DNA of 64,000 bases, taken from the NCBI GenBank assembly GCA_947489325.1, contig CANLDA010000003.1:1-64000 (forward strand), in the 5' to 3' direction. How positions within the stretch are numbered: position 1 is the first letter of the stretch; each line of letters opens with the position of its first letter. The notes beneath the pieces are model-generated. The model was given only the letters and a program-made list of their open reading frames with translations, made no database searches and was not told the DNA's origin. Origin of the DNA: an uncultured Paracoccaceae bacterium. Lineage in GTDB: Bacteria; Pseudomonadota; Alphaproteobacteria; Rhodobacterales; Rhodobacteraceae. Below are positions 1,229 through 29,734 of this stretch, piece after piece. The translations under genes and the position numbers were made by a program.

Positions 1229-2497
1229 TCAGCCAGCAACAACAATGCCCAAGATAAGGATCACTACCAAAGCAACACCCCCAAGCATCACCGATCGAAT
1301 GAGATGGCGTCGCGCTTTGGCGTTTGGTTTTTCTACGGTTGGGATGGACACGATTGGACGAATGCCCACTTGCTGTTCCAGCTGACGCGCTGTGCGAATG
1401 ACAGGGTTGCGCAGCTCAAGCAGAAATGCGGCGGCCAAAGCAACAAGAAGACTGACCAAAGTGCCAGATGCGACGATACGTTTGCGGTTCGGGGAAATCG
1501 GATATTCCGGCACCAAGGCCCGTTCGAGCAAAGTAAAACTTTCCGCTTGCTGACTCTTTTGCAGCATTTGCCCGGTTTCTGCTTCGGCCTGACTGCGGGT
1601 AATGGCGCGATATTGTTCTGACAGTTTTTCCAGCTGACGTTCCAAGGTGTTGAACGTGCGTTCAACCTCGGGCGCGCGGGCAATGATGCCTTCTGTCTCG
1701 GTGGCACGCTGACGCAAAAGCGCGCGCTGTTCCTCTAGCCGCAACACACGATTGGCCTGCACAGTGCTGGCCCCCGGCTGCAATCCTGTGTTCAACTCAA
1801 CAATCTGACGTTCGATATCCAATTCGGCGGCGCGCAATTCGCCAAGCCGTTCATGGGCTTCGTCAACACCTGCGGGCAATGCTTCGGCATTGACGCTTTT
1901 GAAATTGGCAATTTCCTGTTCCAATGCACGGATCGCGCCACCAACGCGGGCCTCTTCACCTTTGAAGAACTCCAGCGTTTCGCGGGCGCGTTCTTCGCGA
2001 CGACGGCGTGTTTGATCCAATACATTGGTCACAAGCTCATTGGCTACAAGCGCTACAACTTGTGGATCTTGCATGGTTACAGTGATGCTTAGGGCGGTGG
2101 GCGAAATATCAGAGCGCCATTGTAGTGTCGGATCAATCACACGTGTCACAGTCGCAGATTGACGCAATAATTCTGCCTTCATGCCATTTTGAATGTCACC
2201 GCCGGCAAACAGGTTAAACTTCTCAACGATATGCAGCAGATTATCACGTGCCATCACCTGTTGTTCGACGATTTGCAACTGCTGCAAAGTTGACGCATTC
2301 ACGGATTGCGCCCCGGCTGTTGGATCTTGAATCTGGGGTTGTTCAATCTGGATCAACGCCGAAGTTTCATAAAGGCGTGGCAGGCTGGTGGCATAGAGGA
2401 CAGACAGCAAGATGCCACCCAATACGGTAACCGTTATCAGCACTACATGCCGACGTATCATTCCAACATAGTCACTTAATGACTGGAACTGATCCAT
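1229..2497 (-). CDS. Wzz/GumC-like polysaccharide chain-length or export co-polymerase, no kinase domain
   Basis: This 422-aa inner-membrane protein has the Wzz fold. An N-terminal membrane segment lies at about 15-35 and is followed by a periplasmic region with long heptad-like helices (about 130-310). A second membrane segment is at about 345-365 (RKRIVASGTLVSLLVALAAA) and a third, hydrophobic one is at the extreme C-terminus. The Pro/Asn-rich PEYPISPNRKR stretch before the second segment is typical of GumC/ExoP proteins. There is no Walker-type BY-kinase domain, so it would need a separate kinase or act alone. The ATG at 2497 follows AAGGAG with good spacing. It lies 120 bases downstream of the PPTase gene and probably belongs to the same polysaccharide locus. 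Confidence 0.85.
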   Translation of the reverse strand: MDQFQSLSDYVGMIRRHVVLITVTVLGGILLSVLYATSLPRLYETSALIQIEQPQIQDPTAGAQSVNASTLQQLQIVEQQVMARDNLLHIVEKFNLFAGGDIQNGMKAELLRQSATVTRVIDPTLQWRSDISPTALSITVTMQDPQVVALVANELVTNVLDQTRRRREERARETLEFFKGEEARVGGAIRALEQEIANFKSVNAEALPAGVDEAHERLGELRAAELDIERQIVELNTGLQPGASTVQANRVLRLEEQRALLRQRATETEGIIARAPEVERTFNTLERQLEKLSEQYRAITRSQAEAETGQMLQKSQQAESFTLLERALVPEYPISPNRKRIVASGTLVSLLVALAAAFLLELRNPVIRTARQLEQQVGIRPIVSIPTVEKPNAKARRHLIRSVMLGGVALVVILILGIVVAG

Positions 2498-2617: not shown

Positions 2618-3313
2618 TCAAGCCTTGCGCTCTTGCGGCAAGAAAACAAGGCTCAGAATCTGGCAACCGATCACCAAATTGTAACCCGCCAATGTAGAAC
2701 CCGCCGCAAATACCCCTGTATTTTCCACGAATGTTGCAGAAAACCGGCCGTGCGCCGGGTCAAGGCTGATGGCAATGCGCTCAAACCCGAACATCGCCTT
2801 GGTCAGCGGGTACTGGCACTTAAAGGCCGCCTCTTTTGCGCTGAAAATACGTTTGGCCAAAAGCGCGCTCTCTTGCGGGGAGTGTCCACGCAGCCATGCC
2901 TTTTCTTCCGGAAGGCACACAGTGTCCAACAAGGCAGGCGCCAGCGGCAAAGCGCCTTCTATATCGGTGCCGATGGCACGAAACTCTGCCGCATGCCCCA
3001 CAAGTGCGATGCAATGGTCCTGATCATGGGTGAGAGAGCCGACAATACCCTTTGGCCAGATGGGCGCGCGATCTGATCCCATAGGGATTTCAACGGCTGG
3101 ATGGTGCAGCCGCGCCAGGGCTTGTCGAATGGCGGTTCGTCCCAAGGCGAATTCACGTTGTCGTTCCGGCACGGCACGCGCGATGGCTTGGTTTTCAGCT
3201 GGCCATAAAGACGCGGGCGTTTCGGTTTTAGACACAACCGCAGAACAGACACCTTGCGGCAACAGACGCACTAGTGCCCCTTTCAGCGTTGCGTCCTGTG
3301 TCAAAATGCTCAT
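2618..3313 (-). CDS. 4'-phosphopantetheinyl transferase (Sfp/EntD superfamily)
   Basis: This 231-aa protein is predicted to transfer the phosphopantetheine arm of CoA to carrier-protein serines. The magnesium- and CoA-binding signatures are present: GTDIEGA around residue 118 and FSAKEAAFKCQYP about 45 residues later. The length fits the single-chain Sfp/EntD class. The ATG overlaps the stop codon of the NRPS gene in an ATGA junction, so translation is probably coupled. That makes it the likely activating enzyme for the ACP of the PKS and the PCP of the NRPS next door. The region between the two motifs has the arginine-rich N-terminal half usual in EntD-like members. Confidence 0.92.
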   Translation of the reverse strand: MSILTQDATLKGALVRLLPQGVCSAVVSKTETPASLWPAENQAIARAVPERQREFALGRTAIRQALARLHHPAVEIPMGSDRAPIWPKGIVGSLTHDQDHCIALVGHAAEFRAIGTDIEGALPLAPALLDTVCLPEEKAWLRGHSPQESALLAKRIFSAKEAAFKCQYPLTKAMFGFERIAISLDPAHGRFSATFVENTGVFAAGSTLAGYNLVIGCQILSLVFLPQERKA

Positions 3314-6300
3314 TGAGCCGCCTTATTTCGTTTCGCTCGCATAGCGCGCCGCTTGGCCATCGCGTCACTGCGACCTTGGGCGCGCCCGGTTGAGGGTGCG
3401 TTGCCGGACGGGGTGTCTGTCGCCCTGGGAGATGCCAACTTGCCCGCCCGCTTCTCAAGCTGGCTTGCCAGTTCATTGAGTACCGGAAAGCGGAAAATGT
3501 CGGTAATGCTGACCTTGGCGATGCCCAAGCCATCGCGAATTTCACGGTGCGCCTGAACGGCAAGCAGGGAATGCCCTCCGAGTTCAAAGAAATTGTCACG
3601 GCCAGAGACCTGAACCACCCCCAGAATACGTGACCATATAGCCCCGATCTGTTTGGCAAGATCGCCCGTTGAGGTTGCTTCCTCTGGCGCAGTTGTGGCC
3701 GGGGCGGGTTTGGCCATTTGCGGCGCAGGCAGGGCGTTTCGGTTGATTTTCTTGTTGGGGGTCAACGGAAAGCTGTCCAGCGTCACAATATGCGTTGGCA
3801 CCATAAAATCAGGCAAATCGCGTGACAGTGCAACGCGTAGTGCGGCACCTGCTGCGCCACCAGTCACATAGCCCACCAGACGCTGATCCCCTGGTTGATC
3901 TTCTCGCGTGATAACCACAGCCTGACTGACACCCGGTAGCGCCTCAAGCCGGGCCTCGATCTCGCCCAATTCAATCCGATAGCCGCGCAATTTGACCTGA
4001 TGGTCTGCGCGCCCAAGGAAATCAAGTCGCCCATCCCCGCGCCAGCGCACCAAATCGCCCGTGCGATACATACGACCCTGACCTGCGAAAGGATCATCTA
4101 GGAACCGTTCTGCTGTCATGGCCTCGCGCTGCCAATAACCACGCGTAACGCCTGCACCTGCGATCCACAGCTCGCCTGCCACACCAACGGCTACGGGCTG
4201 GTGCTGATCGTCCAAAACATAAAGGCGCGTGTTGGCGATGGGGGTGCCAAGGTCGGCAACGCTTGCAGAAGTCGTCACATCAACCTTGCCCGTGGTGGAC
4301 CAGATTGTGGTTTCCGTTGGGCCATACATGTTTTCGATGTGGGCATCGGTTGCGGTCTGCAATTCAATGGCCAAACTTGTCGGCAGGGCCTCTCCGCCAA
4401 TCATCACATGGCGCAAAATGCCCATGGAGGCACGGGCCGCATCATCACCAACCAACATTCGCGCCATGGACGGGGTGCATTGCAGGTGTGTCACCTTGTG
4501 GCGATGTATTTGGGCCGCAATGGAATAATCCCCCTCAGCGGGGCCCGCACCGGAATTGGCGCGTTGCAGCACCTCTGCTAAGGGCTTCAACCCCTCCAGA
4601 ACCACATCCGTATCAATGCCATAATCAATCAGGCAAGCGACCTCTGCCACACCAATAGATTTCAGTTCTTCAACCCGGGCAAGGCAGTCTTCGACCGTAC
4701 CAAACAGGCCCGAGTCCTCAAAGTATCGCAAGAATGCGAAATCAAGGATTTCCTCAAGCTCATCATCACTCAGGATACCAAGATCAAGCTGAAACGGGTT
4801 GTCGACACCTTTGGGTTTCTTAAAGGCAGGAAAGGCCCAAGCGTATTGCTTGATCAGCCCTGCCGCGCTGCGCAGATAGTTTTTCATCGGCTCGCGCGCT
4901 GTTTCACGCACCTCTTCGCGGTCATGGCCAACAAAGGTGTGCAACATCAACGTGACCTTGAAGTCCTTGGGATCATGACCCGCTTTGCGCAGCTCAGCGT
5001 GATAGAGGCCGATTTTCTCCTGCACCTCTGCAACGCTTTGCCCCAAAAGGTGCGTCAGGATATGAGCGCCGGCCTTGCCTGCGTCTTTCCACGTCTGCGG
5101 ATTGCCAGCAGTGGTGACCCACAGTTCCAATTCTTTGGAAACTGGGCGCGGCTGGGTGCGGGCGGCGAACATACTGCCATCCTTGCGCGCAAACTCCACC
5201 GCTTCGCCACGCCACAGCGCACGCAAGTCTTTCATCTGTTCAAACATCACTGTGCGGTTTTCTGGCGGTGTATGATCAGGCCACAGCACAAAGTCATCCG
5301 GCTGCCAACCCGACGCAATCGCAAGCCCAGCGCGGCCATTTGTCAGATTGTCAATTACAGCCCATTCTTCGGCAATACGCGCTGTATGGTGCAAAGGTGC
5401 GACGCAACTACCTGCACGAATGCCAATGTTATGAGTTACAGCCGCCGCCGCCGCGCCCGTAACCGACGGGTTTGGGTACGGCCCACCAAAAGCATGAAAA
5501 TGACGTTCAGGCGTCCAGACCGCACAAAATCCGTTCTGATCAGCAAATTTTGCGCCTTCCAGCAAGAGACGATATTTCCCCGACCCGGGGGCATCATCGT
5601 TGCCCCAGTAATAGATCGAAAACTCCATTCCTTGGGCAGAGTTGGCGACAAACCCGTTGGAAATCTGGCTCGCTTTGTCGTCCCCGGAAATCACCACCTT
5701 GAATCCACGCGCAAGTGTATAGAACAGCTCTAGCACGGAAATATCAAAGCTAAGGCTTGTAAGCGCCAGCCAAGTGCCTGCTGGATCATGTTGCACGCGC
5801 TCATCCATGCCTGCAAAGAAATTGGCAACGTTACGATGCTCTACCATCACGCCCTTTGGCACACCGGTAGAGCCAGAGGTATAAATCACATAGGCAAGAT
5901 CATTGCCTGTCACGCCGCTGTCAGGATTGGCATCAGGGCCATCTTGCACGTCGTCTATCACCAGAACCTGCGCGTTATGTGTGGGCAGGTCTGCCTGTAT
6001 TGCAGACTGCGTTACAATCACGCCTGCCTGACTGTCCTGAATATAATGCGCAAGCCGATCTTGTGGATAGGCCGGGTCCAGCGGCACATACGCACCGCCT
6101 GCCTTAAGAATACCCAAGACCCCGATCATCATGTCCAGCGACCGTGTGCAATACAGCCCAACAAGTGCGCCCGGCACCACGCCCATGGCTTGCAGTTGGT
6201 GACCAACACGGTTGGCGGCGCGGTTTAATTCATCATAACTCAGACTTTGGTCTTCATACACCACCGCCGTGGCCTCTGGTGTGCGCAGCACCTGCGCTTC

Positions 6301-7830
6301 AAACGCGGAATGCATCGGTACATCATCGAATGCGCAATCTGTTGCGTTCCAGAGATGCAGAAGCTCGTCTTGTTCCACCCCATCCAATAGAACAATCTCT
6401 CGCCCCTCTGACACACATCGCAAGGCGGCTTCAAACCGTGCAACAAGGCGTGTTGCATGCTGATCCTCAACACGTGCACGATCTAACACCATATGCAGAG
6501 TATCACCCAAAACGATGTTCACAGCGCTAACCGGAGTCACACCGACATCCAGCACTGCCAGATCAGGGCATGTCAGGTGGGGCAACTCGGCATCTCGCAA
6601 AGGCAAATCTACTGCAATAGCCCCTTTCTCGGCATACACTAGGGCCACGTCTGCCATGGCATCGCCCAATGGCACAGGCACCCAGTCGGTTAGGTATCCC
6701 GAAGCAACGGGCAAGGCGCCCGAGACATAGGCAAGAGAGCTGCCGATCTCACACCCACTGTTAAGTGCAAATCCGGCAAGGGCCTGCCATATTTGTGCAG
6801 AAGTCATGCCGTCAGGGCGCGCAATCGCATAGCGTTTGTAATTGGCATCTGACGCATCACCGATCAAAGGCAATTGTGCAGGCAGGAAATTGGCCAATTG
6901 TCCGCGCCAAAAGGCATCGTTCGAAGGTGGGATATCCGCACGCGCCGCGTCAACCTTGGTACCGACGCGCACCACATCAGATGCACGCAACGCTTTTCCA
7001 GACATGTCACGCAACCCGGACAAGCGCACAGCACCCTGCGCGCAGGCAATGGTCATATCCTCAGCCACCGCTACAACTGTGCCCGGCATGCCCCCGCCTT
7101 CGATATCGTCTGCGGCACCTACGGCAAAGACCTGTCCTGCGATTTCAATCTTGGCAAGGCCAACAGGGTTCCAATATTCGCCATGATCCAAGGCCCGTAT
7201 CAGGCGTGCGACATCCGCCGAATTGTCCGCAAAATCAAGCGGGGGAATAGGTTTGTTTCCGGCAAAATAGCTGCGCTGATTTAAGTCCTGAGGCGTGCCT
7301 GCGACGTCCTCGGACGTCAGCATGCCCAGCAGATCATCAAAGCTTTCGATTGCGGCCTCATAACAGCGGGTGTTCAGCGTAAGCGCGGTATCTTTGGGGC
7401 CAATATCAAACATACGCTGCACGAGGATATTGCCTGTATCCGCACGCGCCTGCATCAGATGCCATGTGATCCCGTGGTGACGTTCACCATGGATCAGCGC
7501 CCAGACAGGGGCATTCAGCCCGGCATAGTGCGGCAAAGGACCATCGTGGAAATTCACCGCGCCCTTTTGGGCCTGTTCCAACAAGGCTTGTGGCAACATA
7601 TCAAGGTTGGCGATACTCAATAGCCAATCAAAGCTAAGGGCACTGCACCGTGCCACCAAATCCTCATCGGCAGAGATAACCGGCACGTTTCGTGTTTGTG
7701 CCCAGTTGGAAATACCCTGACTGCGGGTGACAACGGCCACGATATCATGACCCGCCGTCAACGCGGCCTCTGCGCATTGGATCAAAAGGGATTCATTGCC
7801 GATCAAAAGCATCTTGAGTCTATCAGACAT
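3310..7830 (-). CDS. NRPS initiation module: formyltransferase / C-remnant / A(Gly) with inserted luciferase-like monooxygenase / PCP
   Basis: This 1506-aa protein carries a methionyl-tRNA-formyltransferase-like domain at 1-300 with the triad Asn93, His95 and Asp131 intact. About 190 residues at 305-500 resemble the back half of a condensation domain and lack HHxxxDG. An adenylation domain follows at 505-1370 (A3 TSGSTGVPKG at 651-660). It is split after A4 (SFDISVLEL, 694-702) by an FMN-dependent luciferase-like monooxygenase at about 733-1090. A5 (YGPTETT) resumes at 1169, and a PCP has Ser1421 in GGHSL. Code residues D696, I697, L700, Q1117, M1143, G1145, M1168, I1176, W1177 and K1361 read DILQMGMIWK, very close to the glycine code DILQLGLIWK. 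A basic tail ends the protein and there is no thioesterase. The start at 7830 was chosen over an upstream frame because GGAGG precedes it. It overlaps the glycosyltransferase gene by 8 bases. The inserted oxygenase belongs to the MupA/Atu3671-type natural-product group. Confidence 0.93.
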   Translation of the reverse strand: MSDRLKMLLIGNESLLIQCAEAALTAGHDIVAVVTRSQGISNWAQTRNVPVISADEDLVARCSALSFDWLLSIANLDMLPQALLEQAQKGAVNFHDGPLPHYAGLNAPVWALIHGERHHGITWHLMQARADTGNILVQRMFDIGPKDTALTLNTRCYEAAIESFDDLLGMLTSEDVAGTPQDLNQRSYFAGNKPIPPLDFADNSADVARLIRALDHGEYWNPVGLAKIEIAGQVFAVGAADDIEGGGMPGTVVAVAEDMTIACAQGAVRLSGLRDMSGKALRASDVVRVGTKVDAARADIPPSNDAFWRGQLANFLPAQLPLIGDASDANYKRYAIARPDGMTSAQIWQALAGFALNSGCEIGSSLAYVSGALPVASGYLTDWVPVPLGDAMADVALVYAEKGAIAVDLPLRDAELPHLTCPDLAVLDVGVTPVSAVNIVLGDTLHMVLDRARVEDQHATRLVARFEAALRCVSEGREIVLLDGVEQDELLHLWNATDCAFDDVPMHSAFEAQVLRTPEATAVVYEDQSLSYDELNRAANRVGHQLQAMGVVPGALVGLYCTRSLDMMIGVLGILKAGGAYVPLDPAYPQDRLAHYIQDSQAGVIVTQSAIQADLPTHNAQVLVIDDVQDGPDANPDSGVTGNDLAYVIYTSGSTGVPKGVMVEHRNVANFFAGMDERVQHDPAGTWLALTSLSFDISVLELFYTLARGFKVVISGDDKASQISNGFVANSAQGMEFSIYYWGNDDAPGSGKYRLLLEGAKFADQNGFCAVWTPERHFHAFGGPYPNPSVTGAAAAAVTHNIGIRAGSCVAPLHHTARIAEEWAVIDNLTNGRAGLAIASGWQPDDFVLWPDHTPPENRTVMFEQMKDLRALWRGEAVEFARKDGSMFAARTQPRPVSKELELWVTTAGNPQTWKDAGKAGAHILTHLLGQSVAEVQEKIGLYHAELRKAGHDPKDFKVTLMLHTFVGHDREEVRETAREPMKNYLRSAAGLIKQYAWAFPAFKKPKGVDNPFQLDLGILSDDELEEILDFAFLRYFEDSGLFGTVEDCLARVEELKSIGVAEVACLIDYGIDTDVVLEGLKPLAEVLQRANSGAGPAEGDYSIAAQIHRHKVTHLQCTPSMARMLVGDDAARASMGILRHVMIGGEALPTSLAIELQTATDAHIENMYGPTETTIWSTTGKVDVTTSASVADLGTPIANTRLYVLDDQHQPVAVGVAGELWIAGAGVTRGYWQREAMTAERFLDDPFAGQGRMYRTGDLVRWRGDGRLDFLGRADHQVKLRGYRIELGEIEARLEALPGVSQAVVITREDQPGDQRLVGYVTGGAAGAALRVALSRDLPDFMVPTHIVTLDSFPLTPNKKINRNALPAPQMAKPAPATTAPEEATSTGDLAKQIGAIWSRILGVVQVSGRDNFFELGGHSLLAVQAHREIRDGLGIAKVSITDIFRFPVLNELASQLEKRAGKLASPRATDTPSGNAPSTGRAQGRSDAMAKRRAMRAKRNKAAQ

Positions 7831-8830
7831 ACGTGTCCTCCTGCCTTGATATTTCAGGCACCTCGCGCGCCTTAGCGGCGCGTCCCCGTAACAGAATCCG
7901 GAAATCATGCATCACTAAATCACGCAAAAAGCGACGTGGGCCTGTCACTTTCTTACCCGTCAATGCCGCACGAACCCACGCCAAAACACCGCCTGCGACA
8001 TGTGCAAGGGTCGCGCCAATCGCATAAACCACCCCGTGGTTGCGCAAGAAATATTGCAGTCGAGAGTCTAGCCAGAACCCAGGGATACGGTCCCATTTGC
8101 GCATGCCGGTGGATACGGACCCCACGTGCAAGACACGGCTTTCGACTACATAATGAGTTTGCCAACCCGCGCGCGCACCGCGCAGGCACAGGTCGGTTTC
8201 CTCAAAATACAGAAAATAGGATTCATCAAAAAGCCCGATGTCTCGCAACATTGCGGTGCGCATCATCATACTGGCACCAGCTGCCCAATCCACCTGACAG
8301 GTTTTTGTGGGAATCGGCGGGGCAACAATGCTGTTTTTCAACAGGCGACTGATTGGTCCGAATTTGGCGGCACCTTCAAATTCGCCCGCTATGGTTGGGA
8401 AACGAAAGGATGAATGTACAGCCTCAACGCCATCTTCGTACAGCTGGCTACAAGCAAAGCCGCATTTGGGGTGGGCACGCATATGTTGCATCAAGACGGC
8501 AATCGCGCCCTGATCGACAAAGGCGTCAGAATTCAGGATCAGCACAAATTCCGGCACACCCTGTCCGCGCGCCATCTGTTGACCGATACCCAGACGAATG
8601 CCGAAATTATTGCCTGCACCAAACCCACCATTGTGCCCGGATTGCGCCACATGCACGCGGGTTTCGGACCAGTCTTGCGCAGACAGCTTGTCGAACGATC
8701 CATCCGCGCTGTCGTTGTCCACCACAACGATTTGTCCATTAATGCCCTCGGTTGCGCGCAGCGCAGCCTCTACGGCCTGCATGGTCATTGTGGGGGTGCG
8801 GTAATTCAAGATCACTGTCAAAAGGCTCAT
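7823..8830 (-). CDS. Family 2 glycosyltransferase (rhamnosyltransferase-like)
   Basis: This 335-aa GT-A fold enzyme opens with LLTVILNYRTP and VVVDNDSADGS, the nucleotide-sugar binding start of family 2. A DSD-like metal site (LNSDAFVD) lies near residue 98 and the acceptor-side motif YFLYFEETDLCLRGARAGW near 210. These resemble dTDP-rhamnose-using enzymes of the WcaA/RfbF kind. The ATG at 8830 is preceded by AGGAGG and overlaps the PKS stop in ATGA. Its 3' end overlaps the NRPS start by 8 bases. Its place between PKS and NRPS in a coupled unit suggests that it glycosylates their product, though it could act on the polysaccharide instead. The donor sugar is not determinable. Confidence 0.88.
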   Translation of the reverse strand: MSLLTVILNYRTPTMTMQAVEAALRATEGINGQIVVVDNDSADGSFDKLSAQDWSETRVHVAQSGHNGGFGAGNNFGIRLGIGQQMARGQGVPEFVLILNSDAFVDQGAIAVLMQHMRAHPKCGFACSQLYEDGVEAVHSSFRFPTIAGEFEGAAKFGPISRLLKNSIVAPPIPTKTCQVDWAAGASMMMRTAMLRDIGLFDESYFLYFEETDLCLRGARAGWQTHYVVESRVLHVGSVSTGMRKWDRIPGFWLDSRLQYFLRNHGVVYAIGATLAHVAGGVLAWVRAALTGKKVTGPRRFLRDLVMHDFRILLRGRAAKAREVPEISRQEDTYV

Positions 8831-11800
8831 TCTGCGGCCTCCTGCCATGCGTCTGTGATGTCTGCCTCGGCGGCCTCGATTACCCGTTTCATGCGTGTGG
8901 CCAGAACCCGCACATTCGGTTCCAGAACCATTGAATCATGATCCCCCGGTACCTCGGTCACGTGCACATTTGGCACCCATTGCCCCCAATCATTATCGGC
9001 AAAAACATAGGCACGTTGACGATCAACCCAGCGGTCGCCCCCAACCTGCCAATAACCATTCAGCGGTGGGCGGAACAATTCAAGCCGGCCGTCCCAGCCA
9101 TGCATATCATAGGCTTCAACAGCAGACAGGAACGCAGCCTCGATCTCAGCATTATGAAAGTGCGGGGTTTCTTCGGCTTTGGAGTGATCTTGCGCGCGGC
9201 GTTTGGAAATTTCCCAAGCGATCCGACTTTTCAGCCATAGCATTGGATACAGCGGCCCACGACGCTTCAGTTCGATCAATTGCATCCACATCCGATCCCC
9301 AAACCTCAGCGGACGGCGTTGTGGCAAAGGCGTATCCAGCAAGATCACAATCGCCACTGTGTCGCCTGCAGCTTCCAACTGACGCGCGATTTCATAGGCG
9401 GTGATCCCCCCGCCAGAAAACCCGCCAAGAAAGTACGGGCCCTTGGGTTGCACCGTTTTCATTTCACGAATGTAATCCGTCGCCGCCTCGCGCAAATCTC
9501 TGTGCGGCGGGGCATCGCCAAACAACCCACGCGCCTGAAGCCCATAAAACGGTCGGTCCGCGCCAAGAAGATGCGCGAGATGGCGCAAGTTCAGAACATT
9601 GCCAAACATACCCGCCACAAGGAAAAACGGCGCTTTGCGCCCGCCTTCGCCATTATGCATTGGGACCAGATGGGTAAAGCGGCGCAGCGGTACGACGCCT
9701 GAATCCGTCGAGGCGTCACTGGTGTCTTGTGGGCCAATACGGTTTTCGATCAAACCCGCACATTGCGCAATTGTCGGGGCCTCAAACAGCACCGAAATGG
9801 GGAATTCCACCGCCCATGTCTTTTTCACCATGGAAAACAGGCGCACCGCGACCAACGAATGCCCGCCCAGATCAAAAAAGCTGTCGTTTGTGCCAACATC
9901 CTGCACGCCCAACAGATCTTGCCAGAATCCGGCAAGGGTGCGCTCTATATCGGTTTGTGGGGCCACAAAATCATTATCCAGATCGGGTCTTTCAAAGGTT
10001 TGGCCGCGATCGATTTCGTCCAGCTCTCCTGCCTGATCAATCAATGCATTCAAATCCATTGACGACACGATAATCTGCGAGGCTTTTGCCGCCAGAGCGC
10101 GGCCAAACATTTCCGCGCCTTCATCGGGGCGAATGCCCTGTTGCAGGTTGTGACGCAAGCGTTCCTCGGCGGGGGTGATGGCATCAGTGGGGGCTTCGAT
10201 AAAGCGAACATCCTGCGCGCGAACAGGGGCACTTGCCGAAACGCCCAGTGCATCTTGCATGCGTTTCAGGGTCAACCCACGCACTTGCACGCAAACTTGT
10301 CCCGCCTCATTCAAAACATCTACGTCAAAGCGAGCAACGCCCTGTGTGTCACTGCCAGACACCAATCGCACCCAACTGACAACCTGCGACGGCAGGTCGT
10401 GATATACCCGGATAGCCCCATAAGATAATGGCACCCACAGCGCTTGTTGCGCATAACCATCAATCAGATCCATCGCCCAACCTGTGGCAATATCCATCAT
10501 CCCCGGATGCAGTGCCATACCGTCATCGACAAAGGCATTGTCCAGTGACAGCTCTGCCAACCCCTCGCCCTTTCCAAAACGCACGGCGCGCAACACTTTC
10601 CAGCGGGGACCAAAGGCAAGATGCGCCTCTTGTGGGGCGGACAGAGCATCGGTGCCACGGGTTTCTTCGCCACATCGGCCTGCCACCTGAGCCGTTAAAA
10701 TATCTTGCGCCGCAGGCATGGTGCCCAAAGCAACAGAGGCTTCGGCATGCAACATTTCGGCCTGACGCCCCTCGACCATAACCCGGCTTACGATTTGCAC
10801 GTCATACCCGATTGCTGCACGTATCAGGCGCACACGAATGTCCTGCGAGACTCCATCAGAAACCACCAAGGGACGCAGGAATATCAGGTCTCGAATTTCA
10901 TAGGGTTTCTGTTCGCCATGTGCCCGCAAGGCCTGCGCGATCAATTCGATATATCCCGTACCGGGCCAAATCGCAGTGCCATCCAGCATGCGGTGTTGAT
11001 CCAGAACCCAGCATTCCTGATTGATATGGGCCGCAAAGACCCGGTGTCCCTGTCCATCATACCCACCTTGGGTCAAAATAGGGGTTTCAATCGGGGCAAG
11101 GCGCTCTTTCGCAGATGCAGGTGCGAGGGCCTCTGCCGCCATACCAACGCCGTTCCAGATACCCCAGTTCAACGCCAGAACACGGGTTTTATCCTGTGCG
11201 CGGCTTTCGGCATACGCATTCAAAAAGGCATTGGCCGCGACGTAATCCACCTGCCCCGCCGGCGCGATGGCAGTGGACGAAGACGCAAACAGTGCCAGCC
11301 AATCCAATGTGCCATCAGGGAACAACGCATCAATCACCTGCGTGCCGTGCAATTTGGGGGCCATAACGTCTTCGACTGAGGCAGAGTTTTTCGACAAAAG
11401 CGGCGCATCATCCACAACGCCTGCGGCATGAATTACACCGTGAATGTCACCCTGTTTTGCCTGAACATCACGCACGACTCCTTGCATCTCTTCCAGATTA
11501 CTGACGTCTGCGGATTTAACGATAACTTGACCACCCAGCGCTTCAAGCCGCTCGATGGTGGCAATTCTGTCAGCAAATCGCGGATTAAGACGCGCCTCAT
11601 TCCACTGTGTACGCGCCGGAAGCGGGGTCCGCCCGACCAGAACAATGCAGCCCGCCCCTTGTTGCAGCAGTGACTGCGCCAACGTCACGCCGATGCCGCC
11701 AAATCCTCCGGTGATCAGATAGGTGCCACCAGCCCGTATATCCGCACCTTGCTCAGGCAACGCATTGGGCCGATAAATCCGCTCAAACCGCTTTGCACCG

Positions 11801-14800
11801 CGCAATGCGGCCACGCGATTTTCAGGTTGGGCGATGATTTCTTCAAGCACGGCATCCACTAAATCTGCCTGCCCCGACACAACGTCCAACAACCCTGCGG
11901 TCACCTGCGGCAATTCACGCGGCGCAACCTGAAGCGGGCCCAGCACCGTTGCCTTTTCTGGGTACGCCAGCCCTTCGCTACGCACCTGTACTGCACCGGA
12001 ACTGATGCAGGACACATGCACGGGCCTTGGGAGGTTTTCATCCGTAATCGCCTGCATCAAAAACAGGATCGAGTGCAGTCCTTGTTCAAGGTTACGATGG
12101 AAAAATGAACTGCCCGGGCGCGCACCTTCGTCTTGCGTTAACAGCCACATGTGCACGATCCGGCTGGGTGCACGTCCGTTGACAATCAGATCAGATATCA
12201 GTTGGTCATATCCTTCACGACCACGCTCTGGGGCCAGAACATAGTGATCCGGTGACAACCGTGCAAAGGCATCACCTGTGTCCACCTCAACCACCCCATG
12301 ACCTGCCGTGCGCAGGCGTTCGGCGACCTTTGCTCCCGTTCCGGCGGCATCGCGAAAGATCAACCAGCTTTCGGTTGGCAGCAGTGACAACTCAGTTTGC
12401 ACATCAATGTCACATTGCGCCAAGGTCGGACGCCACGCCGGACGATATCCCCAGGATGCCATGTCATCTGTGCGCAAAAGTTCGGTATCTTCTGCGACCG
12501 CTTTGCCCGGTTCAATAAAGTATGGTGCGCGCTGGAAGGCATAGGATGGCAACACAACGCGATTGCGACGCGCCTCTCCCCAGATTTGGGCCCAATCAAT
12601 GCTAGCGTTACAAGCCCACAGGCGCGCCAAGACAGTCATGAACCAAATGTCATCGGCCACATCTTCGTCCATATGCCGCAACAAGTTGATCACATGTCCC
12701 GCGCCAATATTCGGCTGCATCCGCGCCAGAACGCACAGGGTTTTGCCTGGGCCAACTTCAAGATAAACGCGATTTTTCTCGGCCGAAAGCGTTTCCATAC
12801 AGTCACCAAACCGCACGGTGTGGCGCAAGTGGGTCACCCAATACTCTGGGCTTGTGGCCTCTTCATCTGTCAGAGGTTGCCCGGTGCGATTTGAGATGAT
12901 CTGCACCTTTGGCACGGCCAGTGTAATTCCAGATAGATAAGCCCTGAATTCATCCAAAACAGGGTCCAACATAGCAGAATGTGCCGCAATATTAATTGGA
13001 ACGCGCTGACATTCGATGTCTTGTGCCGCAAGGGTTGCGGCCAAGTCGTCCAATATAGCATCAGCCCCAGAAACGACTGTCAGCATAGGAGCATTCACCG
13101 AGGCAATGTCCACATCTTCACCGATCAGGGCCTCGACTTCGGCCACAGGCAAGGGGATGCTCAGCATTCCGCCTGCAGGCACGCTGTCCATCAATTGTCC
13201 ACGCAACAGCACGAGGCCGATGCAATCCTCAAACGACATCACGCCCGCCAGACAGGCCGCCGTGTTTTCCCCCATGGAGTGACCCACAAGCGCGGATGGC
13301 ATCACATCCCAGCTTTGCATCAACTGTGCCAATGCATATTCCGCGATCATGATCAGCGGAAGCTGTAGCGAGGGCTGTTTTAGCTGCTCTGCCGCGCCGT
13401 CAACCTGCCCCAACCATAAGGCACGCACGTCATAGCTGACCTGTGCCTGTAAATGGTCCAATCCGCGGTCCATCCATTCTTGGAAAACCGGTTCTGTTTC
13501 ATAGAGACCTTGCGCCATGCCGGCGTATTGTGCGCCGCCACCGGGGAACATGAACACAACTTCGGCCGCATCCGGGGTGGCGTCATGGGCAAACACGCGC
13601 CCTGTCTCTGCCCTGTCCAGCAATTGCGCGGCCTCGGTTGCGTTGTGTGCCACCACAACGCGGCGTTTTTCAAAGGCGCGGCGCCCCTCCTTCAAGGTCC
13701 ATGCAACATCGGCCAAGTTTTGTTCGGGATTGGTACGCAAATGCGTCACTAATGCTGCGGTATTTGCATCCAATGCCTTTTTCGTACGCCCCGAAATGAC
13801 AAGCGGCTGAAAGGGCCAATCGCTTTCGTCGCTTGATACGCGTTCGGGTGCCTCTTGTACCACCACATGCGCATTTGTGCCGCCTACGCCCAATGAATTC
13901 ACCCCGGCCCGGCGCGCGCCCTGTCGTTGTGGCCAATCAGTCAGACGGTCATTCACCACAAAGGGGCTGTTTTCAAAATCAATGGTTGGATTAGGGGCCT
14001 CATAGCCCAGACTTGGCGGCATCTGTTGATGATGCAACGCAAGCGAGGTTTTGATCAGACTGGCGGCCCCGGCTGCTGTATCCAGATGCCCGATGTTTGT
14101 TTTGACCGACCCGATACGGCAAAATCCGCTGTCCGCCACATCGCCGAATGCTTCCGTCAGGGCAGCCACCTCGATCGGGTCGCCCAGATATGTGCCTGTG
14201 CCATGGCATTCGATGTAATCCACGGAATGCGGCTCTATTCCAGCCATTTCCTGCGCTTCTGAAATGGCCGCGGCCTGACCGCCAACACTGGGCGCCAAAT
14301 ATCCAGCCTTATCCGCGCCGTCGTTATTGATCGCGGATCCACGAATGACGGCCCAGATGTGATCGCCGTCCGCTATTGCGTCATCCAAGCGACGTAGGAC
14401 TACAACTCCGGCACCGCTGCCAAAAACCGTGCCTTCAGCGCGATGGTCAAAGGCGTGGCAATGACCGTCCGGGGACAGAATTTCCCCATCGCGATATGTA
14501 TATCCCCGACCATGAGGCAACTCAATCGTAACGCCGCCTGCCAGCGCCATATCGCATTCACCGGTCAGCAGCGACTGACAGGCGTAATGCACAGCCACAA
14601 GCGACGTGGAACAGGCCGTTTGAATATTGACGCTTGGCCCCTTGAGATCAAGAAAATGGCTAAGGCGCGTACTCAGGAAATCCTTGTCATTGCCTGTGTG
14701 GCGCAGCAGGAACATGCCCGTATTTTTGACGAGATCAGGATTGGAACACACATTGAAATAGAAATAGCTGCCCATACCGCACCCGGCATAAACCCCAATC

Positions 14801-15168
14801 GGCCCGCCAAAGTTTTCAGGCATGTGACCGGCGTTTTCCAAGGCCTCCCAGCTGACTTCTAGAAATTGGCGATGTTGGGGGTCCATAATGGCCGCTTCTT
14901 TGGGACTAAGACCAAAAAACTCAGCATCAAAACGCTCAAACCCCTTCAATTTTGCCGCAGCGGGGACATAATTGGGTTGGCGAATTCGGGCACGGCTTTC
15001 GCCTACGGCAAGCAATTCTTCTTCGCTTAGGCGTTCAATTGATTCTACACCATCGCGCAGGTTTTCCCAAAATTCGGCAACAGACTCCGCCCCCGGCAAA
15101 TGCGCGGCCATCCCAACGATAGCGACATCATTGTCGGACCAATCCAGTTTATCTGCACCTTTCGTCAT
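8827..15168 (-). CDS. Type I modular polyketide synthase, KS-AT-KR-DH-ACP-TE
   Basis: This 2113-aa protein contains one extension module. The ketosynthase at 13-435 has Cys186 in TACSTS, His322 and His361. The acyltransferase at about 538-830 has Ser631 in GHSMGE and a IAAH motif at 727-730, which leans towards malonyl-CoA but is not decisive. The ketoreductase has a structural half at about 930-1120, a catalytic half at 1147-1345 (TGGFGGIG) and Lys1272 and Tyr1309. The residues VDD at 1252-1254 lie where B-type enzymes have LDD. The dehydratase at about 1375-1635 has His1392 and Asp1559. The ACP has Ser1771 in GGHSL, and the thioesterase has Ser1918 in GFSGG and a late GDHDSM. The KR precedes the DH, the reverse of the usual order. 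The thioesterase implies that this protein releases the final chain. No strong ribosome site precedes 15168, but the reading frame and first domain fit. Confidence 0.95.
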   Translation of the reverse strand: MTKGADKLDWSDNDVAIVGMAAHLPGAESVAEFWENLRDGVESIERLSEEELLAVGESRARIRQPNYVPAAAKLKGFERFDAEFFGLSPKEAAIMDPQHRQFLEVSWEALENAGHMPENFGGPIGVYAGCGMGSYFYFNVCSNPDLVKNTGMFLLRHTGNDKDFLSTRLSHFLDLKGPSVNIQTACSTSLVAVHYACQSLLTGECDMALAGGVTIELPHGRGYTYRDGEILSPDGHCHAFDHRAEGTVFGSGAGVVVLRRLDDAIADGDHIWAVIRGSAINNDGADKAGYLAPSVGGQAAAISEAQEMAGIEPHSVDYIECHGTGTYLGDPIEVAALTEAFGDVADSGFCRIGSVKTNIGHLDTAAGAASLIKTSLALHHQQMPPSLGYEAPNPTIDFENSPFVVNDRLTDWPQRQGARRAGVNSLGVGGTNAHVVVQEAPERVSSDESDWPFQPLVISGRTKKALDANTAALVTHLRTNPEQNLADVAWTLKEGRRAFEKRRVVVAHNATEAAQLLDRAETGRVFAHDATPDAAEVVFMFPGGGAQYAGMAQGLYETEPVFQEWMDRGLDHLQAQVSYDVRALWLGQVDGAAEQLKQPSLQLPLIMIAEYALAQLMQSWDVMPSALVGHSMGENTAACLAGVMSFEDCIGLVLLRGQLMDSVPAGGMLSIPLPVAEVEALIGEDVDIASVNAPMLTVVSGADAILDDLAATLAAQDIECQRVPINIAAHSAMLDPVLDEFRAYLSGITLAVPKVQIISNRTGQPLTDEEATSPEYWVTHLRHTVRFGDCMETLSAEKNRVYLEVGPGKTLCVLARMQPNIGAGHVINLLRHMDEDVADDIWFMTVLARLWACNASIDWAQIWGEARRNRVVLPSYAFQRAPYFIEPGKAVAEDTELLRTDDMASWGYRPAWRPTLAQCDIDVQTELSLLPTESWLIFRDAAGTGAKVAERLRTAGHGVVEVDTGDAFARLSPDHYVLAPERGREGYDQLISDLIVNGRAPSRIVHMWLLTQDEGARPGSSFFHRNLEQGLHSILFLMQAITDENLPRPVHVSCISSGAVQVRSEGLAYPEKATVLGPLQVAPRELPQVTAGLLDVVSGQADLVDAVLEEIIAQPENRVAALRGAKRFERIYRPNALPEQGADIRAGGTYLITGGFGGIGVTLAQSLLQQGAGCIVLVGRTPLPARTQWNEARLNPRFADRIATIERLEALGGQVIVKSADVSNLEEMQGVVRDVQAKQGDIHGVIHAAGVVDDAPLLSKNSASVEDVMAPKLHGTQVIDALFPDGTLDWLALFASSSTAIAPAGQVDYVAANAFLNAYAESRAQDKTRVLALNWGIWNGVGMAAEALAPASAKERLAPIETPILTQGGYDGQGHRVFAAHINQECWVLDQHRMLDGTAIWPGTGYIELIAQALRAHGEQKPYEIRDLIFLRPLVVSDGVSQDIRVRLIRAAIGYDVQIVSRVMVEGRQAEMLHAEASVALGTMPAAQDILTAQVAGRCGEETRGTDALSAPQEAHLAFGPRWKVLRAVRFGKGEGLAELSLDNAFVDDGMALHPGMMDIATGWAMDLIDGYAQQALWVPLSYGAIRVYHDLPSQVVSWVRLVSGSDTQGVARFDVDVLNEAGQVCVQVRGLTLKRMQDALGVSASAPVRAQDVRFIEAPTDAITPAEERLRHNLQQGIRPDEGAEMFGRALAAKASQIIVSSMDLNALIDQAGELDEIDRGQTFERPDLDNDFVAPQTDIERTLAGFWQDLLGVQDVGTNDSFFDLGGHSLVAVRLFSMVKKTWAVEFPISVLFEAPTIAQCAGLIENRIGPQDTSDASTDSGVVPLRRFTHLVPMHNGEGGRKAPFFLVAGMFGNVLNLRHLAHLLGADRPFYGLQARGLFGDAPPHRDLREAATDYIREMKTVQPKGPYFLGGFSGGGITAYEIARQLEAAGDTVAIVILLDTPLPQRRPLRFGDRMWMQLIELKRRGPLYPMLWLKSRIAWEISKRRAQDHSKAEETPHFHNAEIEAAFLSAVEAYDMHGWDGRLELFRPPLNGYWQVGGDRWVDRQRAYVFADNDWGQWVPNVHVTEVPGDHDSMVLEPNVRVLATRMKRVIEAAEADITDAWQEAAE

Positions 15169-15276: not shown

Positions 15277-16644
15277 TCAAGGCGAATTCAAGGCACTTAG
15301 TGCCAGAACGGCATCAGCGTTCATCCAAAAGGCAAATCCGGCAAGCCCCAGACCTAGCACAAGAAATACCGCATCATGCAGCGCATCCCAAGTGCCCTGT
15401 TGTCGCGCTAGCCAGACCACCACGGGATAGGCCAGCACATAGGCCACGCCCTGACCAATAAGCGCCCCGATCAAGCCCCAGTATTGCGCGCCAATCACCA
15501 AAGCCGCCAGAGTCAGCGCCGCACGCGTTGCGGCCAGCACAAAGAATTGTCGGGAATTGCCTGCCGCTAGTGCAGCCTGATCATAGGTCAGTGCAATCAC
15601 ATGGGGCACTTGCATGGCTGCAACGACCACCACAACACCGCCCGCAAGCGCATACCGTGGATCATAAAGCGTCGTCACCAACCACGCCCCAACCAGCGCA
15701 AAGAGACCCAGCAGTGCCAAAATCAATAAGCTGAGCGCAACCCGCATGCGCTGCAATTTTCGATAATTTTCGGGTGCATCTTTTGGGGGCAACTCGCGAT
15801 AGATCGGGATCAACGTTTTGCGCACAACCATACCACCCAACAGCATCGGAAAGCTGGCAAGGAAGTAACCGATATTATAAATGCCCAGCGCCTCTAACGT
15901 CAGATACTTGCCAAGGATAACCTTGTCGCCTTGGGACAACAAAAATCCAGCCACAGTGCTGAGAAACACCCATTTACCAAAATGGATCAACTCATGTGCC
16001 GCTGCTTTTTCCCAGCGAAACCTGTTGCGCGCGCCGGGCAAATACGCATCATACAACCAAAGCTGAATGGACGCGCTGACCAGCCCGCTGAGGGCCAGCG
16101 CCCAGACCGACTGCAACCACCACGCCAACAGCACCGCCGCGATGATACCACTGATTTGTGTGATGACATCAATCGCTGTCACCCGCCCCAGCATCAAGTG
16201 GCGGTTGGCGGTTTCAAGGCGCGTGGGATTAAACCCTGTGATGACCAAGGATAGCCCGGCAACGGGCAACAGTTGCGCCAATTGCGGGGCGTCGTAAAAC
16301 CATGCGGCAGGCATCGCCAAGGCGCATGTTCCCAGCCACAACAACACCCCGCGCCAAACTTGTATTGTCCACGCGGTATCCAGGAAACCCGGATCATCGC
16401 CGCGTTTGCTTTGCATGATAGATGGGCCGACGCCAACGTCCGAAAACATCGCCAACCCCATCATAAACACCCCAACAAGGGCCATCATGCCAAAGGCCTC
16501 TGGGAACAGCAGTCGCGTGAGGATCAAATTAGAGGCCAGTCGCAGCGCCTGCGAAGTGGCATAGCCCCCCAATGTCAGTGCCGAACTGCGCATCACACGA
16601 TCACGCAGGCCGTCGCCGCGCAGAAACATCGCAAGGCGGCTCAT
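15277..16644 (-). CDS. Wzx-like oligosaccharide or lipid-linked-product flippase
   Basis: This 455-aa integral membrane protein of the MOP/polysaccharide-transport superfamily flips lipid-linked glycans across the inner membrane. The sequence shows about 12 hydrophobic segments. Its N-terminus, ALTLGGYATSQALRLASNLI followed by LTRLLFPEAFGMMALV, is typical of lipopolysaccharide-biosynthesis flippases of the WzxC/RfbX kind. The frame extends upstream to 16659, but the ATG at 16644 has GGAG at the right distance and overlaps the preceding glycosyltransferase stop in ATGA. The PKS gene starts 108 bases downstream on the same strand. The substrate could be the polysaccharide repeat, the PKS-NRPS product, or a conjugate of both. 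Confidence 0.88.
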   Translation of the reverse strand: MSRLAMFLRGDGLRDRVMRSSALTLGGYATSQALRLASNLILTRLLFPEAFGMMALVGVFMMGLAMFSDVGVGPSIMQSKRGDDPGFLDTAWTIQVWRGVLLWLGTCALAMPAAWFYDAPQLAQLLPVAGLSLVITGFNPTRLETANRHLMLGRVTAIDVITQISGIIAAVLLAWWLQSVWALALSGLVSASIQLWLYDAYLPGARNRFRWEKAAAHELIHFGKWVFLSTVAGFLLSQGDKVILGKYLTLEALGIYNIGYFLASFPMLLGGMVVRKTLIPIYRELPPKDAPENYRKLQRMRVALSLLILALLGLFALVGAWLVTTLYDPRYALAGGVVVVVAAMQVPHVIALTYDQAALAAGNSRQFFVLAATRAALTLAALVIGAQYWGLIGALIGQGVAYVLAYPVVVWLARQQGTWDALHDAVFLVLGLGLAGFAFWMNADAVLALSALNSP

Positions 16645-17462
16645 CTTCCGCGTCTCCATTCATCGCCCCGTCCGGGGCCAAGACGCACTGCAAGGGCCAC
16701 CGATGCATAGGCCGCAAATCCCATTGGATCGCGTAACGCCAATCGTAATGCACCCAGTATCCCAAGGGGTTGCTTGTCATCATTGGTCAGAAGTTCTGGG
16801 AACCAGTCAGATATTTCTACCACCCCTCTGTCCTGCCGCCGACGTACACGCACCAGTTTCGAAAAGCCTTCAACAACGGGCCATTCATAAGAGGCCTGAA
16901 CCTTCAGTCGTTCACGTGACGCGAATTGAAGGCGTGCAAATGTGTCATCGGAGATAATGGCAGGCCAATCGCCCCAACGATCGCGCCCTGCCGCATTCAC
17001 TGCAAAAACACCTGCGCCCGGCACACCCTTGGCCATAAATGGCACCTGCGCCCAAATACGAGCATAGGCACGGCTGAACGCGGTTTGGGCGGTCATCTTC
17101 AAATGACCGCTGGCATAGGTTGGCGCTTTCGTGGACAGGCACTGATAAAGCTGCGCCAATAGGGCAGAATCCACAACAACATCCGCATCCAGATAAACCC
17201 GTGCGGTACCTTGCGCCGCCATATCTCCGGCATTCAGAGCATTGGCCTTGCCACCCTCTGTCAGATCAAGCAACACAAACCGCCAACCTCGTGCACCAAT
17301 CCTATGACGAAAGCTATTCGCAACGGCAACAGTGTCATCCTCACAGCCATTCGCGACGATAATCACCTCAGCGCGCTCTGGTCCATCCGAACGCAAAACC
17401 GCCTCAAGGCAGGATCCAATCCACGCCTCTTCGTTGCTGGCTGGGATAATAATGCTCAGCAC
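16641..17462 (-). CDS. Family 2 glycosyltransferase
   Basis: The first residues LSIIIPASNEEAWIGSCLEA and VIIVANGCEDDT are the classical family 2 opening. DADVVVD near residue 100 is the metal-binding DxD. ISDDTFARLQF near 190 is the catalytic-base region. The frame can be opened at a TTG (17489) with no ribosome site. GTG at 17462, nine bases after AAGGAAGGG, puts the start directly at the conserved beta strand and is preferred, giving 273 aa. It overlaps the flippase start by ATGA and leads the transcript. The product probably adds a sugar to a lipid-linked intermediate at the cytoplasmic face. Confidence 0.85.
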   Translation of the reverse strand: MLSIIIPASNEEAWIGSCLEAVLRSDGPERAEVIIVANGCEDDTVAVANSFRHRIGARGWRFVLLDLTEGGKANALNAGDMAAQGTARVYLDADVVVDSALLAQLYQCLSTKAPTYASGHLKMTAQTAFSRAYARIWAQVPFMAKGVPGAGVFAVNAAGRDRWGDWPAIISDDTFARLQFASRERLKVQASYEWPVVEGFSKLVRVRRRQDRGVVEISDWFPELLTNDDKQPLGILGALRLALRDPMGFAAYASVALAVRLGPGRGDEWRRGR

Positions 17463-17578
17463 TCGTTGTTGCCCTTCCTTATGATCCAAAAATGGTCACG
17501 TCTGCGCCCCAAACATGTTAGACACCTGTATAAGATCAAGTTTCACATAGATTTCTAAGTACGAGCAAGGCCTGCCAC
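17463..17578. promoter_or_regulatory. Divergent promoter region between two glycosyltransferase genes
   Basis: These 116 bases separate outward-reading genes and must contain or overlap promoters for both the long minus-strand biosynthetic unit and the plus-strand family 4 glycosyltransferase. The part around 17515-17565 is AT-rich. I could not assign -35 and -10 boxes with confidence. Confidence 0.4.
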
Positions 17579-18778
17579 GTGACCCGACACTTTAATATCG
17601 GTTATTTAATACCGCAGTTTCCGGGGCAGACCCATATTTTCTTTTGGCGCGAGCTGGAGGCACTGGCGCAATTGGGCGTTACCGCGCAAATATTTTCCAC
17701 ACGCCCCCCCCCGGCAGGCCTCATTTCGCATGATTGGTCTGAGGAAGCGATTGGGCGCACAAAATACCTTGGTCGCATTCGCCCCCTACGTGCCTTACAC
17801 ACATTATTGCGGATTTCGCCACGGATTTGGCTACGTGATGTGATGCGAGAACCTGCATTGATCAAAGATCTTTTGATTTGTCTTGCGGCAGCAGATCAAT
17901 TGGTGCGCAATTGTCAGGAACAGGATATTGATCATGTTCATGTCCATTCTTGCGGACGCGCGGCCTTAATAGCAGCCCTTGCGCATCACTTGTCTGGGCT
18001 AACCTATTCTCTGACGTTGCATGGACCGATGTCTGATTACGGCATCGGCCAGAGGCTCAAATGGCGGAATGCGGCCTTTGGTATTGTGATCACCCGCAAG
18101 CTGATGAGCGAATTGCCTGATCAGTTAGCATCAGATCGACCAGAACGCATCTTGGTGCAGGGCATGGGCGTAGATACCAATGTCTTGAAACGCAACACCC
18201 CGTATGACCCGCCCTTGCCCGGCGATCCGATACGCCTGTTTTCTTGCGGACGTTTAAACATCGTCAAAGGACATCAAGATTTGATGCAAGCCGTTAAAAT
18301 CTTGCGCGATCAAGGCCGAAATGTGCGTCTTGAAATCGCGGGCGAAGATGATGAGGGAGGCACCGGGTTTCATCATGACTTACTTCAAGTCCGCGCCGAT
18401 CTTGGCCTCGAAGAACATGTCACCTTGCTAGGGGCAATTAGTGCCGAGGCCGTGCGAGACAAGCTATGGTCTGCCCATATCTTTGCATTGGCCAGTTGGC
18501 ACGAGCCGCTTGGCGTTGCCTATATGGAGGCCATGGCCTGCGGGATCCCCGTGATCGCCACGAATTCCGGTGGCGTGCCTGAATTGATCACCGATGGGGA
18601 AAACGGCCTGATGGTACCACCCCAAAATCCCACAGCATTGGCAGAGGCCATTCAGCGCATTTGCGAAGATCCTGATCTTGCCCGGCGTCTTGGGCAGAAT
18701 GGACGCAAATATGCGGAAGAAAACTGCCGCTCTTCTCAAGCGGCAGAGGTTTTGCGTGACGAAATTGCCCTGCTGTAG
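17579..18778 (+). CDS. Family 4 glycosyltransferase (EpsE-like)
   Basis: This 399-aa GT-B fold enzyme has an N-terminal acceptor domain beginning IGYLIPQFPGQTHIFFWREL. Its C-terminal donor domain contains LFSCGRLNIVKGH and the retaining EX7E-type region HEPLGVAYMEAMACGIPVIA. NSGGVPELITDGENGLMVPP follows, which is typical of family 4. It begins with GTG at 17579, with AAGG ten bases upstream. It is the only plus-strand gene in the first 30 kb and converges on the RTX glycosidase-like gene seven bases beyond its stop. It probably adds one sugar to the polysaccharide repeat. Confidence 0.88.
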   Translation: MTRHFNIGYLIPQFPGQTHIFFWRELEALAQLGVTAQIFSTRPPPAGLISHDWSEEAIGRTKYLGRIRPLRALHTLLRISPRIWLRDVMREPALIKDLLICLAAADQLVRNCQEQDIDHVHVHSCGRAALIAALAHHLSGLTYSLTLHGPMSDYGIGQRLKWRNAAFGIVITRKLMSELPDQLASDRPERILVQGMGVDTNVLKRNTPYDPPLPGDPIRLFSCGRLNIVKGHQDLMQAVKILRDQGRNVRLEIAGEDDEGGTGFHHDLLQVRADLGLEEHVTLLGAISAEAVRDKLWSAHIFALASWHEPLGVAYMEAMACGIPVIATNSGGVPELITDGENGLMVPPQNPTALAEAIQRICEDPDLARRLGQNGRKYAEENCRSSQAAEVLRDEIALL

Positions 18779-21659: not shown

Positions 21660-21739
21660 TCTTGGACTCCAATTGTAAGCCAAGGCCCAACGCAGGGCCT
21701 GCGTCAAAGATATTGGCTAATAGGTCGTTGGCAAGTTCG

Positions 21740-26255: not shown

Positions 26256-26286
26256 GATGTCGCCCCTTTACATGTGCCGACATGTT

Positions 26287-27210: not shown

Positions 27211-27216
27211 TAATGT

Positions 27217-28966: not shown

Positions 28967-28987
28967 TTCGCGACCTCCCAAGGTCTT

Positions 28988-29716: not shown

Positions 29717-29734
29717 CCCTCAACTCTTCCTCCC

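Follow-up and report, generated by a model that had tools for sequence, protein, structure and literature searches.

A two-protein NRPS-PKS system with its dehydratase after its ketoreductase, predicted to produce a vinylogous glycine, in a widespread and glycosyltransferase-coupled bacterial gene family

The window, meaning the whole 64,000-nucleotide stretch of DNA analysed, from an uncultured Paracoccaceae bacterium, encodes an NRPS and a single-module PKS that are proposed, with a probability of roughly 0.6, to form a two-enzyme hybrid line making a vinylogous glycine, which is likely glycosylated or placed on a surface glycan. The two partner enzymes, probably makers of a small reactive unsaturated acid from glycine, co-occur in hundreds of bacteria from marine and soil habitats, usually among genes for cell-surface sugars, and no product of the Rhodobacterales cluster was found in the open-access literature. 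What is new is this wide, orphan, glycosyltransferase-coupled family, usually lodged in polysaccharide loci; the placement of the ketoreductase (KR) before the dehydratase (DH) has itself precedents. The line is compact and very widespread (about 510 signature places in GTDB species genomes, a count of close kin), has a testable product, and could serve as a minimal model, made of just two proteins, for studying why the DH follows the KR in some PKS modules, a question dating from the 2016 work on rakicidin. If the glycan link is true, NRPS/PKS chemistry would be joined to the polysaccharides on the cell surface with which marine bacteria attach and interact.

The PKS open reading frame, 2113 amino acids long, comprises one module:

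8827..15168, minus strand: type I PKS, KS-AT-KR-DH-ACP-TE (Pfam; catalytic residues of all domains kept in 11-12 relatives)
13852..15132, minus strand: KS domain, Cys186, His322 and His361 (Pfam at residues 13-389, E 2.3e-72; residues conserved in relatives)
12739..13557, minus strand: AT domain, Ser631 in GHSMG, specificity stretch IAAHS (Pfam at 538-810, E 8e-44; residues conserved)
11152..12456, minus strand: KR, structural and catalytic parts, TGGFGGIG, Tyr1309, VDD at 1252-1254 (Pfam at about 952-1054 for the structural part and at 1148-1339, E 1.7e-49, for the KR; conserved)
10249..11052, minus strand: DH after the KR, His1392 (10993-10995) and Asp1559 (10492-10494) (Pfam in both DH halves, PKS_DH_N at 1373-1462, E 1.3e-12, and PS-DH at 1494-1638, E 3e-18; conservation, AlphaFold and PDB matches)
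9751..9939, minus strand: ACP, Ser1771 in LGGHS (Pfam at 1744-1806; residue conserved)
8899..9621, minus strand: TE, Ser1918 in GFSGG, Asp1945 and His2077 (Pfam from 1850, E 1.9e-17; residues conserved)

Every catalytic motif from KS to TE is intact and conserved in relatives, and the presence of KS, AT and ACP on one chain with intact active sites makes this a type I modular cis-AT synthase. The KR lies upstream of the DH, as the first-pass annotation of this DNA had reported, in departure from the DH-before-KR order that is usual for, rather than required of, such synthases; the Pfam E-values put the observed order far beyond chance, and it recurs in all 80 relatives examined, the best 80 of 508. 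A chance or misassigned domain order was ruled out by Pfam, by these relatives and by structure. Malonyl specificity is assumed for the AT, whose IAAHS stretch is no standard malonyl signature. The VDD motif, taken earlier as a sign of a B-type KR, is indeed present, but constitutes weak evidence of stereochemistry because it decays in some relatives, to 'TRD' in L027 and 'IGD' in L023.

The DH motif reads WVLDQ-H1392-RMLD-G-TAIW-P, with four residues between the His and the Gly (H-x4-G-x4-P) rather than the usual three. This extra residue, correctly identified and numbered in the first-pass annotation, lengthens the distance from His to Pro by one in 96 of 99 relatives in the DH alignment, such that the domain departs from canonical HxxxGxxxxP spacing and is filed as a variant DH. 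Canonical spacing is found in two older sister relatives with the KR-DH order, L142 and L143; the idea that the extra residue causes or marks that order was rejected, since L142, L143 and a Chroococcidiopsis synthase combine the order with canonical spacing. The residue is instead a change specific to one clade, without evident loss of activity.

An inactive DH, which had been raised as grounds for refuting the earlier interpretation, is unlikely because the catalytic His and Asp are each kept in 99 of 99 aligned relatives. An AlphaFold model built on a 34-sequence alignment adopts the double-hotdog fold of a normal dehydratase, bearing out the structure prediction proposed at first pass, with a pLDDT of 94.7; when compared to the PDB with Foldseek and VIA-align, the top match is the BGC11 DH (Z 32.8, 2.2 Å over 268 residues), followed by CurJ, PksJ and CurF, with CurH lower down. 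Judged by this predicted fold and the invariant His and Asp, the domain is almost certainly an active dehydratase. That it might instead be an isomerase, pyran-synthase-like or merely structural, leaving the product with its 3-hydroxyl, is improbable: the motif does carry an extra residue, the position four after the catalytic Asp is Gly in 97 of 99 relatives in place of the classical Gln or His of DxxxQ, and the model also resembles the folds of pyran synthase and enoyl isomerase (Z 28.6 and 25.8), but it matches ordinary DHs best, the structurally characterised DH CurH likewise aligns without the Gln, and the older relatives have normal spacing.

The PKS gene is followed on the same strand by three further genes:

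7823..8848, minus strand: GT2-family glycosyltransferase (GTb), between PKS and NRPS and overlapping both (Pfam; present in 75 of 75 testable relatives)
3310..7830, minus strand: NRPS comprising formyltransferase, condensation-like remnant, A domain with inserted monooxygenase, PCP and basic C-terminal tail (Pfam, TIGR04020, motif survey)
6970..7821, minus strand: formyltransferase domain of the NRPS (Pfam, 1.7e-17 and 1.6e-5; NxH...LP motif in 88 of 90 family members)
4570..5622, minus strand: luciferase-like monooxygenase interrupting the A domain between motifs A4 and A5 (Pfam, 3.1e-44; TIGR04020, E 3.7e-141)
3463..3651, minus strand: PCP domain (Pfam)
2618..3313, minus strand: 4'-phosphopantetheinyl transferase (PPTase) (profile match; in 63 of 80 relatives' loci)

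Overlaps at all three junctions, of 22 bases between PKS and GT2, 8 between GT2 and NRPS and 4 between NRPS and PPTase, indicate a tight operon. The NRPS open reading frame extends over 3310-7908 on the minus strand, but the true start is likely at 7830, residue 27 of the frame, after GGAGGA. The TIGR04020 match of the monooxygenase reaches 470 bits against a curated cutoff of 244, and the Pfam positions place it as an insertion within the AMP-binding domain. The HHxxxDG condensation motif is found in none of 90 NRPS family members, that of the window included, and the protein is thereby composed as a formylating initiation module: an N-terminal formyltransferase with NxH, then A and PCP. Reading the A-domain specificity code by motif gives DILQ(M/L/F/Y)GMIW in 80 of 81 readable members. 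The known glycine code is DILQLGLIWK, and this closeness suggests a glycine-type A domain.

As noted at first pass, the NRPS has no TE and the PKS has one, from which it had been presumed that the NRPS acts first, despite its downstream gene. Comparative genomics bears this out. In L142 and L143, which belong to alphaproteobacterial families other than that of the window, a gene encoding formyltransferase, A, monooxygenase and PCP lies directly upstream, on the same strand, of one encoding KS-AT-KR-DH-ACP-TE; similarly, in Aliiroseovarius L168 and in L194 a formyltransferase-bearing NRPS directly precedes, on the same strand, a KS-AT-KR-DH-ACP-C-A-PCP-TE protein, and the C-A-PCP-TE following the PKS module fixes the direction as from this NRPS to the PKS. 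In these four colinear loci, an aminoacyl NRPS module thus supplies a KR- and DH-bearing PKS module. Furthermore, the conserved NRPS tail is basic, with a mean charge of +5.5, versus a mean of -2.5 for the acidic head of the PKS. After the PCP, the C-terminus bears a conserved motif of the type AMxRRRxMRAxR, in the window (3313-3396) and in relatives, and this basic tail is possibly a docking element. The colinear loci, the missing condensation motif, the tail and head charges and the TE on the PKS all support transfer from NRPS to PKS. That the PKS might act first or independently, with the NRPS modifying another substrate, would fit the transcription of the PKS gene first in the window and most relatives, but is very improbable given an NRPS that opens with a formyltransferase, lacks the HHxxxDG motif and is encoded ahead of the PKS in four divergent loci, and a TE that sits on the PKS.

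The chemistry proposed for the line would begin with the NRPS loading glycine and formylating its nitrogen, after which the inserted flavin monooxygenase would probably hydroxylate the alpha carbon. The aminoacyl group would then be handed to the KS of the PKS, perhaps via the basic C-terminal tail, an order that comes from the comparative genomics. Given the intact active sites, the PKS would add one malonyl unit, the KR reduce it and the DH positioned after the KR dehydrate it, yielding 4-formamido(-4-hydroxy)but-2-enoyl-ACP, from which the TE would release or transfer the acyl group. The predicted product is a formylated and probably hydroxylated vinylogous glycine of the 4-formamidocrotonate type. 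The short unsaturated formamido acid suggested earlier belongs to the right product class, but calling it the simplest skeleton ignores the monooxygenase present in 75 of 75 testable loci. The hydroxylated form could lose the formamide or cyclise; an alpha-hydroxylated N-acyl glycine can, by analogy with myxothiazol, also cleave, which would change the product. Overall, the first-pass interpretation is partly supported: it was mostly right, and incomplete on the inserted monooxygenase and the overlapping GT2 gene, both absent from it, and on prior examples of the domain order.

Each part of this line has known counterparts. Among PDB structures the NRPS best matches LgrA, of linear gramicidin; LgrA and other formylating modules have F-A-PCP initiation in common with it, but LgrA lacks the monooxygenase insertion and hands over to an NRPS rather than a PKS. 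In SolF of solanimycin and in the myxothiazol and melithiazol systems, the alpha carbon of glycine is hydroxylated by a flavin monooxygenase domain lying within the glycine module (PMC10204066); these resemble the window NRPS in domain content, but act later, on growing chains, whereas the window module starts the line, after the formyltransferase. Likewise, the barnesin, syringolin and glidobactin hybrids, which give a gamma-amino alpha,beta-unsaturated acid (PMC13096860, PMC2773804, PMC8248439), consist as here of an NRPS and then a single PKS module that contains KR and DH, order aside, and a TE; unlike the window's line, they make peptides or lipopeptides and have no coupling to a glycosyltransferase.

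The earlier view of the KR-DH order as a departure from the usual stands as regards its rarity, but the order is not new. In the biosynthesis of rakicidin, the KR-DH module of RakEF turns serine and malonate into a vinylogous amino acid, and its authors described the order as unusual, some 300 actinomycete PKS genes all being DH-KR except those for enediynes (PMC5073741). RakEF, from Streptomyces sp. MWW064, resembles the window PKS in being a cis-AT single module in which KR precedes DH, in receiving its substrate from an amino-acid NRPS and in making one malonyl extension; it differs in using serine rather than glycine, in having no reported formyltransferase or monooxygenase, and in passing its product to further NRPS modules rather than a TE, in an actinomycete lipodepsipeptide context. 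A domain survey includes a KR-DH entry from Streptomyces atroolivaceus (PMC2613160), and the text on lusichelin gives a cyanobacterial precedent (PMC12210259). The order also occurs in Chroococcidiopsis (L166, with canonical DH spacing) and on a Streptomyces plasmid. The S. atroolivaceus entry is presumably the leinamycin PKS. Enediyne PKSs (PMC5073741), leinamycin-type trans-AT PKSs and cyanobacterial KS-AT-KR-DH-ER modules thus also have KR before DH, but are iterative, trans-AT or fully reducing, and have no partner combining a formyltransferase with glycine. Uniqueness of the order to this locus is ruled out by the Chroococcidiopsis and Streptomyces plasmid cases, by the rakicidin paper and by the domain survey.

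In the DH phylogeny suggested at first pass, an IQ-TREE analysis of 44 rows, the DHs of 25 KR-DH modules fall in one strongly supported group (100/99) that also contains two long-branched domains from DH-KR modules (L148 and L160); the tree neither shows nor rejects one common origin for the DHs of all KR-DH modules (AU p 0.074). An NRPS gene stands just before the KR-DH PKS in RakEF, L142, L143, L168, L194, Chroococcidiopsis L166 and L195. It seems a reasonable generalisation from these sequences that the DH lineage of KR-DH modules is tied to the extension of aminoacyl units, and the KR-DH order would then be an inherited trait of that lineage.

In a search of 61 genomes, another 13 from the same family carried close relatives. 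A GTDB-wide scan with a DH signature returned 511 matching stretches, a figure that counts close kin and says nothing on other lineages, the signature having been chosen from the family; 508 were confirmed as relatives and the best 80 examined, among them Shimia, Paracoccus, Ruegeria, Tateyamaria, Defluviimonas, Hydrogenophaga and Curvibacter. Within these 80, all 75 loci with enough flank have the NRPS with formyltransferase, split A domain, monooxygenase and PCP, together with the GT2 gene, which separates PKS from NRPS in 74 and is placed before the PKS in Curvibacter L097. The conserved unit is PKS, GT2, NRPS and, in most loci, PPTase. On plasmids of Aminobacter, Rhizobium and Shinella the PKS and NRPS are divergently transcribed, and the annotated Aminobacter and Shinella plasmid records have PPTase and glycan genes with the pair, the Rhizobium record carrying no annotation. 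A viral origin was discounted, no relative being found in viral contigs.

In the window, the unit is adjoined by genes of a Wzx/Wzy-type locus, namely a flippase, a Wzz, an initiating sugar transferase and glycosyltransferases:

75..740, minus strand: Bac_transf initiating sugar transferase (Pfam)
1229..2497, minus strand: Wzz chain-length determinant (Pfam)
15277..16659, minus strand: polysaccharide flippase, Wzx type (Pfam)
16641..17489, minus strand: GT2 glycosyltransferase (Pfam)
17579..18778, plus strand: GT4 glycosyltransferase (Pfam)
18786..21707, minus strand: large protein with a brief match to RTX-type repeats

General Pfam scans of the window gave no match to a Wzy polymerase. A Wzx, Wzz or sugar transferase gene occurs in 52 of the 75 loci, and any window-type neighbour, the RTX-type protein included, in 61. 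Since the operon has a glycosyltransferase locked into it, and Wzx, Wzz or sugar-transferase genes accompany it in most loci, the acyl group would most likely be glycosylated or placed on a surface glycan. More specifically, and tentatively, the formylated vinylogous glycine may be carried by the interlocked glycosyltransferase and export genes to become a reactive, non-sugar decoration of surface glycans in hundreds of species of Rhodobacterales, Hyphomicrobiales and Burkholderiales; this fuller version is rather less probable than its converse.

The glycan destination is not universal, because 14 of the 75 loci have none of the window's glycan genes and no polysaccharide genes were found near L142; it is likely to hold, on gene content, for the main clade. 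In 12 loci with no Wzx match, the flanks comprise WecG/TagA-type and GT2 glycosyltransferases in some cases and ordinary unrelated genes in others, and near L168 there are only an esterase and exosortase genes. L142, L168 and the 14 loci without the window's glycan genes would suit a free diffusible electrophile, acting as protease inhibitor, signal or antibiotic in the manner of barnesin, syringolin and glidobactin, with the glycan genes as neighbourhood only, and vinylogous amino acids are known warheads (PMC13096860). This alternative is nonetheless the less likely one in view of the near-invariant lodging of the GT2 gene between PKS and NRPS, the recurrence of flippase, sugar transferase or O-antigen genes in families as distant as Shinella, Aminobacter and Ruegeria, and a core that showed no recurring gene dedicated to export or resistance.

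A number of further observations concern the surroundings of these genes. The large protein at 18786-21707, whose only match is a weak one to RTX repeats, also accompanies the PKS unit in 35 of the 80 loci (L032-L111). Beyond it, at 21740-31897 on the same strand, are a sulfatase bearing RTX repeats, a weak match to a sulfotransferase, several unassigned open reading frames of 260-480 amino acids, a GT90-type gene and a methyltransferase gene, a set that may indicate a locus for a sulfated glycan. The longer sister line of L168 (3490-17259), encoding formyltransferase-A-monooxygenase-PCP and then KS-AT-KR-DH-ACP-C-A-PCP-TE, is carried by a plasmid of Aliiroseovarius, close to exosortase XrtD; L194 has the same line in another alphaproteobacterial genome. 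In L193 (G723), a KR-DH PKS of the family is accompanied by a divergent NRPS that keeps the monooxygenase and gives no formyltransferase match, such that its starter may differ. The PKS and NRPS of L016 (G009:C3) are broken into several frames, through assembly error or decay, and the PKS frame of L165 (11790-18337, plasmid pRPC of Rhizobium sp. BG6) is broken in the AT region by a frameshift or sequencing error. The window's own genome also harbours a second, distant PKS, at G000:C2:274602-275435, in a 2541-amino-acid open frame.
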